Origin: Confluentibacter flavum
GTDB taxonomy: Bacteria > Bacteroidota > Bacteroidia > Flavobacteriales > Flavobacteriaceae
Assembly: GCF_002843175.1 (NCBI RefSeq)
Contig: NZ_PJEO01000016.1
Span: forward strand, 1-64,000
Length of the DNA: 64,000 nt
Direction of reading: 5' to 3'
Below are positions 27,171 to 60,428 of this stretch, piece after piece. Numbering within the stretch: the first letter of the stretch is position 1; every line of letters begins with the position of its first letter. The notes under the pieces are model-generated. The model was not told where the DNA came from. It made no database searches and saw only the letters and a list, made by a program, of their open reading frames with translations. A program made the translations under genes and the position numbers.

Positions 27171-27614
27171 TCAAAGGTAATTATTTTAATTTTTTATTGT
27201 TAATTTACCATGTATTAAAACGTTAAACTTTTTTATATAAATCGCTTTTCGTTAGAACTCATTTAAACCTTTTGGATTGAAGCGAAAATTATTCATTTTG
27301 TATCCATTTTAAGGTTTTTTTGATCCCGATTGCTATCGGGAGCAGCAGGGCTATGGAAGGAAAAGAAGACGAAAAATGGGTGCAAAAGGGCGGTTTTTTA
27401 GCCAATTGAAAAAGTTTAAACGAGTTCTTTACTAATTCGCTACCTTCGCAAACTTTTTAAATGATTAGAACATGAAATGAGCATGACCGAAAATTAGTCG
27501 CAAATACCAATGAAGATATGCGAATTACACATGACCTTTAAAAAACAACTGCGAAGCACATCAGTGAACACAGCTAATAAATATCAACTTAGAGAACTAA
27601 ATAAATATCTACAT
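27171..27614. other. Intergenic region between uvrC and the rim operon
   Basis: About 440 bases without a convincing gene. It holds the uvrC upstream region (-7-like TACCTTTG at 27172-27179, minus strand), a perfect 7-bp hairpin TCCCGAT-tgct-ATCGGGA at 27324-27341, and at its right end the duplicated leader segment described separately (27531-27621). An open frame from ATG 27510 runs in frame into the RimB-like gene, but the added 35 residues are shared only with the other repeat copy. Confidence 0.6.
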
Positions 27615-27621
27615 ATGAAAA
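27531..27621 (+). repeat. Duplicated leader segment, copy A
   Basis: This 91-base segment is identical at 87 positions to the reverse complement of 60220-60310. It starts at ATGAC, contains ACTGCGAAGCACATCAGTG and ends in the ATGAAAA start of the following gene. Upstream, about 25 further bases (CCAATGAA...) are partly similar. The frame through it is open and in phase with the downstream gene in both copies. Confidence 0.9.
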
Positions 27622-28040
27622 AGAAAATTATTGGCAGAGTAGATAAAGTGGACTTTCCTAATTTGGATTTATTCAATATCGATGTTAAAATTGATACAGG
27701 AGCGTACACGTCTGCCATTCATTGTTCTGATATTATTGAGGACAACAAGAAGCTAAAATGTACTTTTTACAGTGAAGGCCATGCCAATTTCAGTGGAAAG
27801 GAAATCATTTTTGAAACCTTTTCCAGAACGAATGTGAAAAGTAGTAATGGTTTTAAGGAAAATAGATATAAGATAAAATCTGAAGTTATATTTTTTGGAA
27901 AAACATATAAGATTAACTTAACTTTAAGCACGCGCGACGATATGAAATTCCCCGTACTTATTGGTAGGCAATTTTTAAAAAACAAGTTTATGGTTGATGT
28001 AGACAAAGAAAATATGTCTTTTAATTTAAAAACACAATGA
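27615..28040 (+). CDS. RimB-like retropepsin-fold (ATP-dependent zinc protease family) protein
   Basis: A 141-residue protein when started at the ATG at 27615 ([14 protein letters not shown]); an upstream in-frame start would add 35 residues from the duplicated leader, which I judge less likely. The central motif [13 protein letters not shown] carries the Asp-Thr-Gly of retropepsin-like aspartic peptidases, and [10 protein letters not shown] is the family's second signature. Relatives are annotated as putative ATP-dependent zinc proteases and, in pseudomonads, RimB, encoded with RimK. The stop overlaps the start of the RimK-like gene (ATGA), so translation is probably coupled. Confidence 0.82.
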
Positions 28041-35925: not shown

Positions 35926-38900
35926 TTAGTGTTTTTGAATAAACAACTTGGTGTTTACATCATCAAAGGCAATTTCGATGCCTTGGGTTATCTGATCTAT
36001 AATTTCAAGTTCTTCCGTTAATGTTTCTGTTTTTATATATTCTAAATTCGAGTTGACAGCTTGTGCCATTTTATCATCTTTTTGCAGCTTCACATCAATG
36101 CGATCTGTCACTTCAAAACCTGAGTCCTTACGTAAATTTTGAATGCGGTTTACAAGTTCCCTTGCGATACCTTCTTTTCGTAATTCGTCGGTAAGGGTAA
36201 TATCTAAAGCCACTGTTAATGCGCCTTCTTTGGCTACTAACCACCCCTCAATATCTTGTGAGGTAATCTCCACGTCATCAATGGCTAAAGTTATATTTTT
36301 TCCATTAATAACAATATCTAAAACCTCATTTTGTTCCATTTTGTTAATATCTTGCGAGGTAAAGTTAATTACTTCGTTCGCTATGGCCTTCATATCCTTT
36401 CCAAAACGAGGCCCTAAGGTTTTAAAATTGGGCTTAATTTGTTTAACCAATATATCTGAAGCATCTTCTAAAAGTTCAATCTCCTTAATGTTAACTTCAT
36501 GCTTGATTAAGTCTGAAACCGCTAAAATTTCATCTCTTTGCTGTTTACTGCTAACCGGAATCATTATTTTTTGAAGTGGCTGACGTACTTTTATCTTTTC
36601 TTTAGCTCTTAACGATAATACTAAAGATGATATTGTTTGTGCTGCTTCCATTTTACGCTCTAAACTTTTATCTACAAAAGTGGCATCAAAAACCGGGAAA
36701 TTTGCTAAATGTACACTTTCATAGTGTTCCTTTTTGGTAACGGAATTCAAATCCATATACAACCTGTCCATAAAAAATGGTGCGATTGGCGCGCCTAACT
36801 TCGCAATGGCTTCCATACACGTGTAAAGTGTTTGGTAAGCCGAAATTTTATCTGGTTGGTAATCACCTTTCCAGAAACGTCTTCTACTTAAACGCACATA
36901 CCAATTACTTAAATAATCTTGTGTGAAATCTGAAATGGCCCTTGCCGCTTTTGTTGGCTCATAGTCTGCATAATATTCATCTACTTTTTTGATTAATGTA
37001 TGTAATTCTGAAAGTATCCAACGGTCTATTTCTGGTCGTTCATTTAAAGAAATGTCAGATTCACTATAATTGAAATCATCCAAATTGGCATATAATTGAA
37101 AGAATGAATAGGTATTATAAAGCGTTCCGAAAAATTTACGTTTGACTTCTTCAATACCTTCTACATCGAATTTTAAATTATCCCAAGGATTAGCGTTCGA
37201 AATCATGTACCAACGCGTGGCATCAGCTCCAAAAGTCGATAATGTTTCAAAAGGATCAACGGCATTTCCAAGACGTTTGGACATTTTTTGTCCGTTTTTA
37301 TCCAGCACCAATCCGTTAGACACCACATTTTTATAGGCAATATCATCAAAAATCATTGTAGAAATTGCATGTAAAGTATAAAACCATCCACGTGTTTGGT
37401 CAACACCTTCGGCGATAAAATCCGCCTTCTTCCAAGTTTGTTCAACTAATTCTTTGTTTTCAAAAGGATAGTGGAACTGACTAGTTGGCATCGCCCCAGA
37501 ATCAAACCAGACATCTATTAAATCGCTTTCGCGTTTCATGGGTTTTCCAGATTCAGAAACTAGTATAATGGCATCTACAATATTCTTATGCAAATCTATT
37601 TTGGCGTAGTTTTCTTCGGAATTGTTGCCAACTTCGAAATCTTCAAAAATATCTTTTGAAAGTATTCCTGCTGAAACAGCTTTTTGCATTTCGGCTTTTA
37701 ATTCTTCAACCGAACCGATACATAGTTCTTCCTTACCATCTTCAGTTCTCCAAATAGGCAACGGAATGCCCCAATAACGCGAGCGTGATAAGTTCCAATC
37801 GTTAGCGTTTGCCAACCAATTACCAAAACGACCTGTTCCTGTAGCTTTTGGCTTCCAGTTGATGGTTTCGTTCAATTCGAACATGCGATCTTTTACATCG
37901 GTGACTTTTATAAACCAAGAATCTAACGGGTAATAAAGAATTGGTTTATCGGTTCTCCAACAGTTTGGATAACTGTGTTTATATTTTTCAACCTTAAAGG
38001 CTTTGTTTTCTTCTTTTAATTTGATGGCAATCTCCACATCTACCGAACGCTCTGGAGCTTCGCCATCGTTGTAATATTCATTTTTAACATATTTACCGGC
38101 ATATTCACCCATTTCTGGTCTGAACTTTCCTTGTAAATCCACCAATGGCACTAAATTACCATGTTCATCTTTTACCAACATAGGCGGCACTTCGGGCACG
38201 GCTTCTTTAGCAACTTTAGCATCATCAGCACCAAAGGTTGGTGCTGTGTGAACGATTCCAGTACCATCTTCAGTTGTGACGAAATCTCCCGAAATTACTC
38301 TAAAAGCATTTTCTGGATTATCGTGCGGAAGCGTGTATGGTAATAATTGTTCGTATTTTATTCCGACTAAATCTTTGCCTAAACACTCTCCAATAATTCT
38401 ATATGGAATTTTTTTGTCCTCTGGTTTATAATCTAATAATTCTGCTTTTGTATCAACTAGATTGAACTTGCCAGAAAATTGATAGCTAACCAGTTTTTTT
38501 GCTAAAATCACATGGATTGGTTCAAACGTGTATTGATTAAACGTTTCTACCAACACATATTCAATTTTAGGGCCAACCGTCAAGGCCGTATTTGAAGGCA
38601 ATGTCCAAGGCGTGGTTGTCCACGCTAGGAAAAAAATCCCCCTAGCCCCCGAAGGGGGAATTTGATCAGCCTCCCTAAATTGAAATGCTTTATAAAAAAC
38701 GCCCATATTTCCCCCTTCGGGGGCTAGGGGGAACTGCGCCACAACCGTCGTATCTGTCACATCTTGATACGTTCCCGGTTGATTCAACTCATGCGAACTC
38801 AAACCCGTACCCGCTTTTGGAGAATATGGTTGGATGGTATAGCCTTTGTACAACAAATTTTTGTTATAAATTTCTTTTAGCAACCACCAAACGCTTTCCA

Positions 38901-39366
38901 TGTATTTAGGTTCGTAGGTAATGTATGGGTCGTCCATATTTACCCAATAACCCATTTTTTCGGTTAGATCATTCCAAATATCAGTGTAGCGCATCACGGC
39001 TTTTCTACAGGCATTGTTATAATCTTCAACCGAAATAATTTTCCCAATATCTTCTTTTGTAATACCCAATTCTTTTTCAACGCCTAACTCAATGGGGAGT
39101 CCGTGTGTATCCCAACCAGCTTTACGCTTGACTTGATAGCCTTTTTGAGTTTTATAGCGACAAAAAATATCTTTTATGGCACGTGCCATAACATGATGAA
39201 TTCCAGGAAGTCCGTTTGCAGAAGGTGGCCCTTCAAAAAAGACAAACGATTCGTTGTTTTCTCTGGTGGAAACACTTTTTTCAAATATGTTGTTTTCTTG
39301 CCAATAGAGGAGAATTTCTTCTGCTACTTTTGGTAAGTCAAGACCTTTATATTCAGGAAATTTCAT
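35926..39366 (-). CDS. ileS: Isoleucyl-tRNA synthetase with an embedded palindromic element
   Basis: A 1146-residue class I aminoacyl-tRNA synthetase. The HIGH-type motif is GLPGIHHVMAR (about residue 53-63), the editing (CP1) domain contains WTTTPWTLPSNT (about 249-260) and GTGIVHTAP, and the KMSKS loop is GQKMSKRLGN. The C-terminal anticodon-binding region (from WILSELHTLI) is complete. Residues about 211-243, just before WTTTPWTLPSNT, are encoded by a 97-bp facing-palindrome element (38637-38733); the reading frame stays open, giving an insert rich in Pro/Gly. It is followed by a DksA-like gene at 4 bases and preceded by a structured 278-base region. Confidence 0.97.
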   Translation of the reverse strand: MKFPEYKGLDLPKVAEEILLYWQENNIFEKSVSTRENNESFVFFEGPPSANGLPGIHHVMARAIKDIFCRYKTQKGYQVKRKAGWDTHGLPIELGVEKELGITKEDIGKIISVEDYNNACRKAVMRYTDIWNDLTEKMGYWVNMDDPYITYEPKYMESVWWLLKEIYNKNLLYKGYTIQPYSPKAGTGLSSHELNQPGTYQDVTDTTVVAQFPLAPEGGNMGVFYKAFQFREADQIPPSGARGIFFLAWTTTPWTLPSNTALTVGPKIEYVLVETFNQYTFEPIHVILAKKLVSYQFSGKFNLVDTKAELLDYKPEDKKIPYRIIGECLGKDLVGIKYEQLLPYTLPHDNPENAFRVISGDFVTTEDGTGIVHTAPTFGADDAKVAKEAVPEVPPMLVKDEHGNLVPLVDLQGKFRPEMGEYAGKYVKNEYYNDGEAPERSVDVEIAIKLKEENKAFKVEKYKHSYPNCWRTDKPILYYPLDSWFIKVTDVKDRMFELNETINWKPKATGTGRFGNWLANANDWNLSRSRYWGIPLPIWRTEDGKEELCIGSVEELKAEMQKAVSAGILSKDIFEDFEVGNNSEENYAKIDLHKNIVDAIILVSESGKPMKRESDLIDVWFDSGAMPTSQFHYPFENKELVEQTWKKADFIAEGVDQTRGWFYTLHAISTMIFDDIAYKNVVSNGLVLDKNGQKMSKRLGNAVDPFETLSTFGADATRWYMISNANPWDNLKFDVEGIEEVKRKFFGTLYNTYSFFQLYANLDDFNYSESDISLNERPEIDRWILSELHTLIKKVDEYYADYEPTKAARAISDFTQDYLSNWYVRLSRRRFWKGDYQPDKISAYQTLYTCMEAIAKLGAPIAPFFMDRLYMDLNSVTKKEHYESVHLANFPVFDATFVDKSLERKMEAAQTISSLVLSLRAKEKIKVRQPLQKIMIPVSSKQQRDEILAVSDLIKHEVNIKEIELLEDASDILVKQIKPNFKTLGPRFGKDMKAIANEVINFTSQDINKMEQNEVLDIVINGKNITLAIDDVEITSQDIEGWLVAKEGALTVALDITLTDELRKEGIARELVNRIQNLRKDSGFEVTDRIDVKLQKDDKMAQAVNSNLEYIKTETLTEELEIIDQITQGIEIAFDDVNTKLFIQKH
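38637..38733. repeat. Facing-palindrome element inside ileS
   Basis: The left copy 38637-38661 (CCCCCTAGCCCCCGAAGGGGG core) and the right copy 38707-38733 are inverted repeats of each other over about 24 bp, and each is itself partly palindromic (CCCCC-GAA-GGGGG). They enclose a 45-base AT-rich spacer. Base composition is sharply different from the surrounding gene. Confidence 0.92.
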
Positions 39367-39393
39367 CTGTTTATGTTTATTGTTTTTTATCGG

Positions 39394-39544
39394 TCAGATG
39401 TTACATCCATAATCATGCTCCTGTATTTTAAAAGTGTTTTTAGCATGGATGTTTCATCTGATATTTTTTATTTTAATACAATGACAGATGTAAACTTTGG
39501 TGATCAATTTTATGAAAAACTCAATCATCACGAAACCAAAGTTT
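39394..39544. other. Two stem-loops upstream of ileS
   Basis: Arms 39394-39410 and 39445-39461 pair at 15 of 17 positions (TCAGATGttACATCCAT); a second stem AAACTTTGGT (39492-39501) / ACCAAAGTTT (39535-39544) is a perfect 10 bp. They lie 28-180 bases upstream of the ileS ATG. They could form a leader structure in the ileS mRNA, or on the plus strand the first could terminate antisense transcription (a T-rich run follows 39461). Confidence 0.5.
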
Positions 39545-39623
39545 TAACTCTCATTGTATCCAATTTCATTTCGAGGTGCGAAATTAATGAATTTTGATAA
39601 AATAGCGCCTTTAATTAAAGTAA

Positions 39624-45219: not shown

Positions 45220-45248
45220 ATCATCAAAAAAACGGCAAAAGCAAACAT

Positions 45249-45338
45249 ATGAGCCATAACAATAAGTCGATACAAACCGAAACGTTTAATGGCGAATTGC
45301 ATCGGGCCATTAAAAAACAAATAAATATAAGCAGATGA
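45249..45338 (+). CDS. Possible 29-residue leader peptide overlapping glgA
   Basis: ATG at 45249 opens a 29-codon frame (begins MSHNNKSIQTETFNG, basic C-terminal end) whose TGA overlaps the glgA ATG as ATGA. This geometry is that of translational coupling. It has no recognisable family and could be chance; the support is the exact overlap and the long otherwise empty leader. Confidence 0.3.
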   Translation: MSHNNKSIQTETFNGELHRAIKKQINISR

Positions 45339-46144
45339 AAGATAAGAGGATATTATATGTATCATCTGAAGTAGTGCCTTATTTACCAGAGACCGAAATT
45401 TCTTCAATGTCTTTTGAAGCACCAAGATTGGTGAATCAACAAGGTGGCCAAATAAGGATTTTCATGCCCAGATACGGAAATATTAATGAGAGAAGACACC
45501 AATTGCACGAAGTTATTAGGCTTTCTGGAATAAATTTAGTGATTAATGATTTGGATATGCCTCTTATAATAAAAGTGGCTTCTATTCCAAAAGAACGTAT
45601 CCAAGTCTATTTTATTGATAATGATGAATATTTTAAAAGAAAAGCAACATTAACAGACGAAAACGGCGTATTGTTTGCCGATAATGATGAGCGTGCTATT
45701 TTCTTTGCAAAAGGTGTTATTGAGACTGTGAAAAAATTAAACTGGTCCCCAGATGTAATTCATGTACATGGTTGGCTAGCTGCCTTACTTCCTATTTACC
45801 TAAAAGAATATTACAAAGACGAGCCCTTGTTTAACGAAAGTAAAATTGTTACCTCTGTATACAATCAAAGTTTTAACAATACGTTAAGTCTAGATATGTT
45901 TAATAAAGTTAAATTTGACAATCTTAATGAGGACTCCATTAAAGTTTTAGAAGAACCATCTTATATTAATTTAATGAAAATTGCCATTGATTATTCTGAT
46001 GCTTTAATTGTTGGATCTGAAGAAATCCCTAAAGATTTAACAACCTACATTAAAGATTCAAACAAACCTGTTTTAGAATACAAAAATAGAGATGATTTTG
46101 GTGAAGCTTACACGAAATTTTTTAATACTGAAGTTTTAAGCTAA
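45335..46144 (+). CDS. Glycogen/starch synthase N-terminal-domain protein
   Basis: A 269-residue protein matching only the GT5 N-terminal domain of glycogen synthase ([51 protein letters not shown]). Full-length GlgA is about 480 residues with a second GT1 domain, which is absent here. The ADP-glucose-binding KTGGLAD motif near the N-terminus is also absent, replaced by [15 protein letters not shown]. It may not be a glycogen synthase in function. It is followed 23 bases later by the DUF4270 lipoprotein gene. Confidence 0.85.
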
Positions 46145-59776: not shown

Positions 59777-60226
59777 TTAAAGAAATTGTCCCTTCTTCAC
59801 AACAGTATGTCCGTTCCGCTTATAAGACACTTTCGTGCCATTAGCACAAAAATCGTAGGCTCCTTTGGCTTTATCTTCTGTTGCAGATAATAATACCACA
59901 TCTTCTACCTCACATTTATATTCCTTAGCCACTTTTTTCTTTATGTCTTCCATAGTCGCTCGTCCTCTTTTTAATTGTATTTGAATGTTTTTATCTAACT
60001 CAGGCTCTACAAAATCTTGAGCTAAATTACATCCACTACTTTCAGCAGGTTGCAATTTTTCTTTAACGACACTATTTAACACAGGAGATTCTGCATCAAT
60101 ATATTCCCATGTATAATCTGTTTTTAGCAAAACACGTCTGCCATCCTCTGTTTTTACAATGTAATTATTTTGTGAAAAACCAATAAACGAGATAAAAAAC
60201 AATAAGATTAAAAGATGTGTTTTCAT
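59777..60226 (-). CDS. Small exported protein (DUF3157-like)
   Basis: A 149-residue protein starting at the ATG at 60226, where a clean signal peptide begins (KTHLLILLFFISFIGFSQ); an upstream in-frame start would add residues from the duplicated leader and bury the signal peptide, so I reject it. The mature part contains NYIVKTEDGRRVLLKTDYTWEY and two Cys (CNLAQDF, YKCEVED) with a third in DFCANGTKV. I believe it belongs to DUF3157 but cannot confirm this. It is divergent from bioF. Confidence 0.75.
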   Translation of the reverse strand: MKTHLLILLFFISFIGFSQNNYIVKTEDGRRVLLKTDYTWEYIDAESPVLNSVVKEKLQPAESSGCNLAQDFVEPELDKNIQIQLKRGRATMEDIKKKVAKEYKCEVEDVVLLSATEDKAKGAYDFCANGTKVSYKRNGHTVVKKGQFL

Positions 60227-60310
60227 ATGTAGATATTTATTTAGTTCACTAAGTTGATATTTATGAGCTGTGTTCACTGATGTGCTTCGCAGTTGTTTTT
60301 TAATTGTCAT
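60220..60310 (-). repeat. Duplicated leader segment, copy B
   Basis: On the minus strand this 91-base segment matches 27531-27621 at 87 positions. It ends in the ATGAAAA start of the exported-protein gene. Reading frame through the repeat is open and in phase with that gene, as in copy A. Confidence 0.9.
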
Positions 60311-60428
60311 ATGGTATCGCTATTATTTTCATTGGTTTTTTTGCAAAAAACTTGTTGCTAATGGCGATTTCATAATAGATATTATATTGAATGAAATCAA
60401 AAGTACAAATTTTGCATACATTTGTTCT

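Follow-up and report, generated by a model that had tools for sequence, protein, structure and literature searches.

IS200/IS605-derived non-autonomous elements of the PATE type (Y1 HUH) insert 3' of a short fixed target that is kept on the left, carry a cleavage-like motif at the right end, leave no target duplication, and have a strand-specific orientation with stems near both ends. REP/BIME sequences occur as tens of short, structured, interspersed repeats that in known cases are moved in trans by a domesticated Y1 transposase (TnpA_REP, or RAYT), and Bacteroidetes possess their own TnpA subclasses with atypical repeats (PMC6006769). DDE-type MITEs are short, high-copy, non-coding and mobile. 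Among structured RNAs, the Flavo-1 motif (RF01705) is widespread in Flavobacteriaceae at scattered locations, where it is reported in sense or antisense, often outside transcripts, and not at start codons (PMC2864571, PMC9723704).

The leader described here, from a 64-kb stretch of Confluentibacter flavum DNA (the window), is very probably a copy of a structured, non-autonomous mobile element of ~95 bp that inserts at start codons and is present about 60 times in the genome. The element resembles the IS200/IS605-derived elements in each of the features listed above: left boundaries reading GTGAA or TTGAA are found with a right ATGAA, and empty sites hold a single ATGAAA. Unlike them, it targets ATGAA at start codons, it has 6-bp stems closing loops of ~37 and ~25 nt rather than short imperfect subterminal hairpins at both ends, and no matching Y1 gene or parent was found; the Y1 elements of the genome in which it appears most active (G010) have other ends. 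The element shares with REP/BIME its tens of short structured copies, but it is larger, has two stems, and is bounded exactly at the start codon, and whereas a REP repeat flanks its own RAYT gene, the palindromes on either side of the RAYT-like genes in this genome are of another kind. Although short, high-copy, non-coding and mobile like a MITE, it lacks terminal inverted repeats (neither of its ends, A-CATCC.. and ..CACATGAA, is the inverted repeat of the other) and a variable target-site duplication. Its consensus also lacks the nested R''L''-L'R' core boxes (GTTRRRY) of integron attC sites, with stems that lie side by side. Flavo-1 is similarly structured and scattered; no tested element copy matches RF01705. 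HEARO/IsrB elements likewise integrate next to an ATGA-like sequence; HEARO is a long omega RNA and in most cases comes with a nuclease ORF, and the tested element copies have no Rfam HEARO match. The window holds no Rfam match at gathering scores, and ten element loci none up to E 1. We found no description of a start-codon-inserting element in the open-licence full-text literature, and to our knowledge the family is undescribed so far.

Two duplicated leaders and their repeat family

The initial annotation had reported a near-identical leader in front of two unrelated genes. This duplication is real, with 85 of 89 bases (96%, four differences) identical between 27532-27620 (+) and 60221-60309 (-), and the BLAST E-value of 3e-35 between these oppositely oriented copies, A and B, rules out a chance match. 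As had been annotated, both copies are open and in frame with the ATGAAAA of the downstream gene, and the genes are unrelated: a RimB-like ATP-dependent zinc protease of 141 aa behind copy A (27615..28040, +; Pfam PF05618, Zn_protease, E 6.8e-17) and a small exported DUF3157-like protein of 149 aa behind copy B (59777..60226, -; PF11355). The boundaries of the 89-bp match do not delimit a natural unit, however; the match is the tail of a larger element. A search of the same genome with the 89-mer returned many partial matches ending ...ACATATGAAA before different genes, and their alignment gave a ~95-bp element that starts at ATGAAA (ATGAAATCGCC.. or ATGAAATGAGC..) and ends in CATATGAAA, the last ATG of which is the start codon of the gene. 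The element has an ATGAA at either end, and most copies stop exactly at a gene's start codon.

The homology unit of both leaders accordingly begins farther upstream, at the ATGAAA at 27472 and at 60373. Copy A (27472..27620, +), recognized by sequence and by a match to our covariance model, R1 (27473-27568, 64.5 bits), consists of a left ATGAAA (27472-27477), a stem 1 of the ATGAGC/GCGAAT type, stem 2, a 53-bp insert (CTGCGAAGCACATCAG..AACTAAA, 27549..27601, +), and, as the start of the RimB-like gene, a right ATGAAA (27615-27620). Copy B (60221..60373, -; R1 match 60372-60273, 66.4 bits) has its left ATGAAA at 60373-60368, a stem 1 of the ATCGCC/AGCGAT type, a CATATG/CATATG stem 2, the insert at 60240..60292 (-), and a right ATGAAA (60226-60221) that is the start of the exported gene. 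The insert sits in the loop of the second stem, includes two of the four differences, and is absent from all other element loci examined, so the 89-bp match is an ordinary element tail plus an insert common to A and B only. Because the left halves of A and B belong to different subtypes (subtype 2, ATGAGC type, and subtype 1, ATCGCC type, respectively), any copying must have been limited to the right half with its insert, and we propose that the insert probably spread between them by gene conversion. That A and B are a mere recent segmental duplication of one leader is highly improbable: the 96% identity and the restriction of the insert to these two places speak for it, but besides the mismatched left halves, no duplicated segment extends beyond the element at either copy, and the orthologous site of copy A in a congener (G003, locus L031) has the element without the insert.

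By abolishing the TAA stop of the mini-ORF ATGAC..AACAATAA, the insert opens the frame that the initial annotation had considered a possible conserved leader peptide (MTxKKQLRSTSVNTA..KYLHM). The frame is indeed open in A and B, but the coding differences between the two alter the amino acid, and the ORF is confined to these copies; in ordinary copies the mini-ORF ends after MTxKKQ or lacks its ATG, which is missing in the CATCTG and CATGTG subtypes. We therefore reject selection on a leader peptide, whose likelihood we regard as negligible.

R1 finds four copies in the window. Copy C (39361..39457, -; 65.8 bits, E 7.6e-9) is intact, of the ACATCC/GGATGT + CATCTG/CAGATG subtype, and ends at the start codon of ileS, the gene for isoleucyl-tRNA synthetase (35926-39366; PF00133). 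Copy D (45245..45339, +; 39.5 bits, E 3.1e-4) is degenerate, having lost its left ATG; its end coincides with the start codon of a gene (45335-46144; PF08323) of the glycosyltransferase-5/starch synthase-like type. Immediately upstream of the ileS copy, the leader at 39457-39560 (-) has a strong predicted hairpin (-27.5 kcal/mol) and no Rfam match; a remnant tandem copy was suspected upstream of this element, and the predicted fold does not support it.

The initial annotation had proposed a search for further copies, and held that its reading would fall if just these two existed, both as recent, unexpressed segmental duplicates. The search found many: the 4.1-Mb genome holds 56 at E<0.01, and 79 of 199 genomes of the family have covariance-model matches. 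Across the phylum, 25 of 296 genomes have matches, in families f5, f22 and f48 among others; the matches reach a second family of the same order, one family from a different order, and families belonging to other classes. The distant-family copies that were read show identical architecture. Among the matches listed, the exact 25-base tail pattern occurs in Bacteroidota/Chlorobiota records only, its hosts including Flavobacterium, Winogradskyella, Arenibacter, Lutibacter, Chryseobacterium, Gramella, Vicingaceae, a Chlorobiota MAG and others. Viral contigs, phages and plasmids gave no element matches, and carriage by any of these was rejected.

Structure and boundaries of the element

The two stems stand next to each other, the first beginning at the left boundary and the second including the right ATG, and the spacer between them is 2 nt long in 88 of 90 copies. 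Across these 90 copies, which come from many genomes, 88% of cells are paired and 184 are changed on both sides, compared with 57 in shuffles. The covariation score is 0.345, versus 0.111 in shuffles and at most 0.086 with slid partners, in an alignment that was fitted to the structure and so favours this result; a MAFFT alignment of 25 copies goes in the same direction. Positions 7 and 8 of stem 1 hold Watson-Crick or wobble pairs, or a tandem G.A/A.G (37/90 copies), and almost nothing else, while the CAT of stem 2 is invariant and able to pair with the ATG at either boundary. The structured RNA suggested by the initial annotation is upheld in part, by the two conserved, covarying stems; no tested copy matches a known Rfam family.

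Variants of this architecture were also seen. Three loci of one genome carry a 120-nt long subfamily with an extra conserved segment in the first loop. Eight loci have element copies split by palindromic inserts (TCCCGATA..TATCGGGA or GCCTGCC types), which are other palindromic repeats nested inside; a similar palindrome occurs in the window at 27325-27342.

The boundaries are asymmetric. Among 137 copies the left pentamer is ATGAA in 123, GTGAA in five and TTGAA in one, and the right pentamer is ATGAA in 132; a second set has ATGAA at the left in 72 of 75 (with one TTGAA) and at the right in all 75. Distant genomes add two GTGAA and one TTGAA at the left, and CTGAA was seen in none of the copies examined. 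The left therefore looks like the former start codon (ATG, sometimes GTG or TTG) and the right ATGAA like the element's own, a pattern that matches insertion without target duplication. Some of the left GTGAA pentamers could have arisen by mutation of ATGAA. Position +6, immediately behind the right ATGAA, is occupied by A in 97% of copies as against 59% of ordinary ATGAA starts, a preference relaxed in one genome (G350), and the sequence context upstream of copies is similar to that of ordinary starts. Copies stand before long ORFs in 22/29, 19/22, 26/36 and 61/75 cases (72-86%). If only insertions at starts and in intergenic DNA survived, 46% would be expected, the share of long-ORF starts among such ATGAAA sites; among ATGAAA sites of every kind their share is 11%. 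The excess over 46% has p values from 1e-3 to 3e-10. We attribute the lack of insertions inside genes to selection, and part of the start-codon enrichment could be due to purifying selection. The excess over intergenic sites suggests a further target preference, or unannotated small genes, and some copies do lie in intergenic DNA without a gene start.

Mobility and candidate mobilizing enzymes

Evidence of movement comes from G010, where 11 copies have the same 96-bp sequence and each lies in front of a gene or site of its own, among them leucine dehydrogenase-like (leuDH), serC, yidD and MGMT-like genes; near-identical copies precede argG and further genes. At the serC, leuDH and MGMT sites, the flanks joined across the element align unbroken to congeners that hold a single ATGAAA. 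The site of copy B is empty in three congeners (G002, G003, G004), whose orthologs begin ATGAAAAC without the element, so copy B arrived in this lineage. In tandem arrays, one ATGAA is common to both neighbours at each junction. Near-identical copies at unrelated sites together with precise empty sites are the marks of a non-autonomous mobile element, and of the mobile promoter or leader that the initial annotation had envisaged, the mobile leader is borne out.

These observations also bear on a rival view, in which the element acts first and foremost as a cis-regulatory RNA, such as a translational switch that sequesters the AUG within stem 2, selected gene by gene and spread by duplication. 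The strong covariation, the start codon within stem 2 and the usual position in the 5' leader would suit such a role. We nonetheless consider it quite unlikely, given that the carrier genes have no common function (ileS, argG, fmt, ychF, serC, yidD, SusD), that the 11 identical copies precede unrelated genes, that congener orthologs do without the element, that some copies are intergenic, and that the tested copies have no match in Rfam.

In the favoured reading the mobile element follows the IS200/IS605 rule outlined above, of a target kept on the left and its own cleavage motif on the right without duplication; its single-stranded DNA would recognise NTGAA, and an enzyme acting in trans would insert it 3' of this sequence; pairing of the internal CAT with the boundary ATG may form part of target recognition. 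No mobilizing enzyme was found. Y1 transposase genes are present in genomes with identical copies (G010, G143, G180), but none of those examined in G010 has ends matching the element, and the IS200 copies of that genome were rejected as parents because their ends differ. An autonomous, gene-bearing parent with split element halves was likewise absent among the loci examined. Neither the RAYT genes (MSRNYKF type) nor the subclass-1.2 Y1 genes were retained as candidate movers, since the palindromes flanking them differ from the element. In three RAYT-containing loci, the covariance-model matches precede genes next to the RAYT gene instead of bracketing it. A repeated 1.3-kb element that gave weak model matches (29.8 bits) proved to be an insertion sequence unrelated to this family, encoding an integrase-type transposase. 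PF01797 genes are absent from several high-copy genomes, and the copies sampled there are all old (53-85% identical), a combination that fits enzyme loss without proving it.

Three RAYT-like genes, two in the C. flavum genome (L203 3603-4160, L204 3673-4239) and one at L215 2713-3273 (MSRNYKF.., NHVH..YIHNNP), resemble TnpA subclass 2.6 and have their own flanking palindromes (CGCTAAGCT/AGCTTAGTGG; CGCGCGAATCC..). Two low-copy Y1 proteins of the C. flavum genome (L206 2765-3226, L207 1233-1829) are subclass-1.2-like (MANTYTQIHIQ..YIKNQ), and the palindromes on either side of their genes, GTCCC..GGGAC or CTCCTACGGAG, may be a cognate repeat, although subclass 1.2 is described as generally without IS-type ends (subclasses per PMC6006769). 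In G180, a RAYT-like gene lies immediately upstream of a Cas1-like gene, which is followed by an element copy (L208 1941-3684).

Two further modes of movement can be weighed. A tyrosine recombinase, rather than a Y1 enzyme, might recombine the element at ATGAA, as a folded single strand or as a circle, by an attC-like logic. The single-crossover geometry, with one ATGAA per junction and tandem arrays sharing it, would agree with this, as would the structural constraint on the ends and the many host genomes without Y1, but the consensus has no attC R'/R'' core boxes, the stems are side by side rather than nested, and no candidate recombinase was identified, so we hold it to be unlikely. Tentative, and less likely than not, is a reading in which the element represents a class found throughout Bacteroidota/Chlorobiota that homes to start codons by CAT-ATG nucleic-acid pairing, brings a new start codon and leader for the gene, and owes its movement to an enzyme or RNA-based mechanism that belongs to no known transposase family.

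Tolerance of insertion at start codons

An insertion at a start codon would normally be expected to kill or silence the gene. Bacteroidetes, however, make no use of Shine-Dalgarno sequences; initiation there relies instead on the sequence ahead of the start being unstructured and poor in GC (PMC3155529). At its right end the element has a 25-nt A-rich loop with its own ATG and thus replaces both the start and the leader of the gene, which would then be translated from the element's ATG behind its own A-rich 25-nt leader. Because start selection in Bacteroidota is independent of Shine-Dalgarno pairing, insertion exactly at the start codon would be nearly harmless. The presence of copies at essential genes, ileS in the window and fmt, ychF and pheT elsewhere, supports near-neutral insertion, and the apparent tolerance at ileS, pheT and fmt is likely explained by the ATG and unstructured leader that the element brings with it.

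The element affects start-codon annotation, as the ORF of the gene behind copy A is otherwise called 35 codons too long. It also provides a handle toward a new or diverged single-strand transposase. More broadly, a start-codon-inserting element of this kind would make many of the mapped 5' leaders of the phylum element-derived, and would tie the target choice of a mobile element to the Shine-Dalgarno-independent initiation of Bacteroidota.
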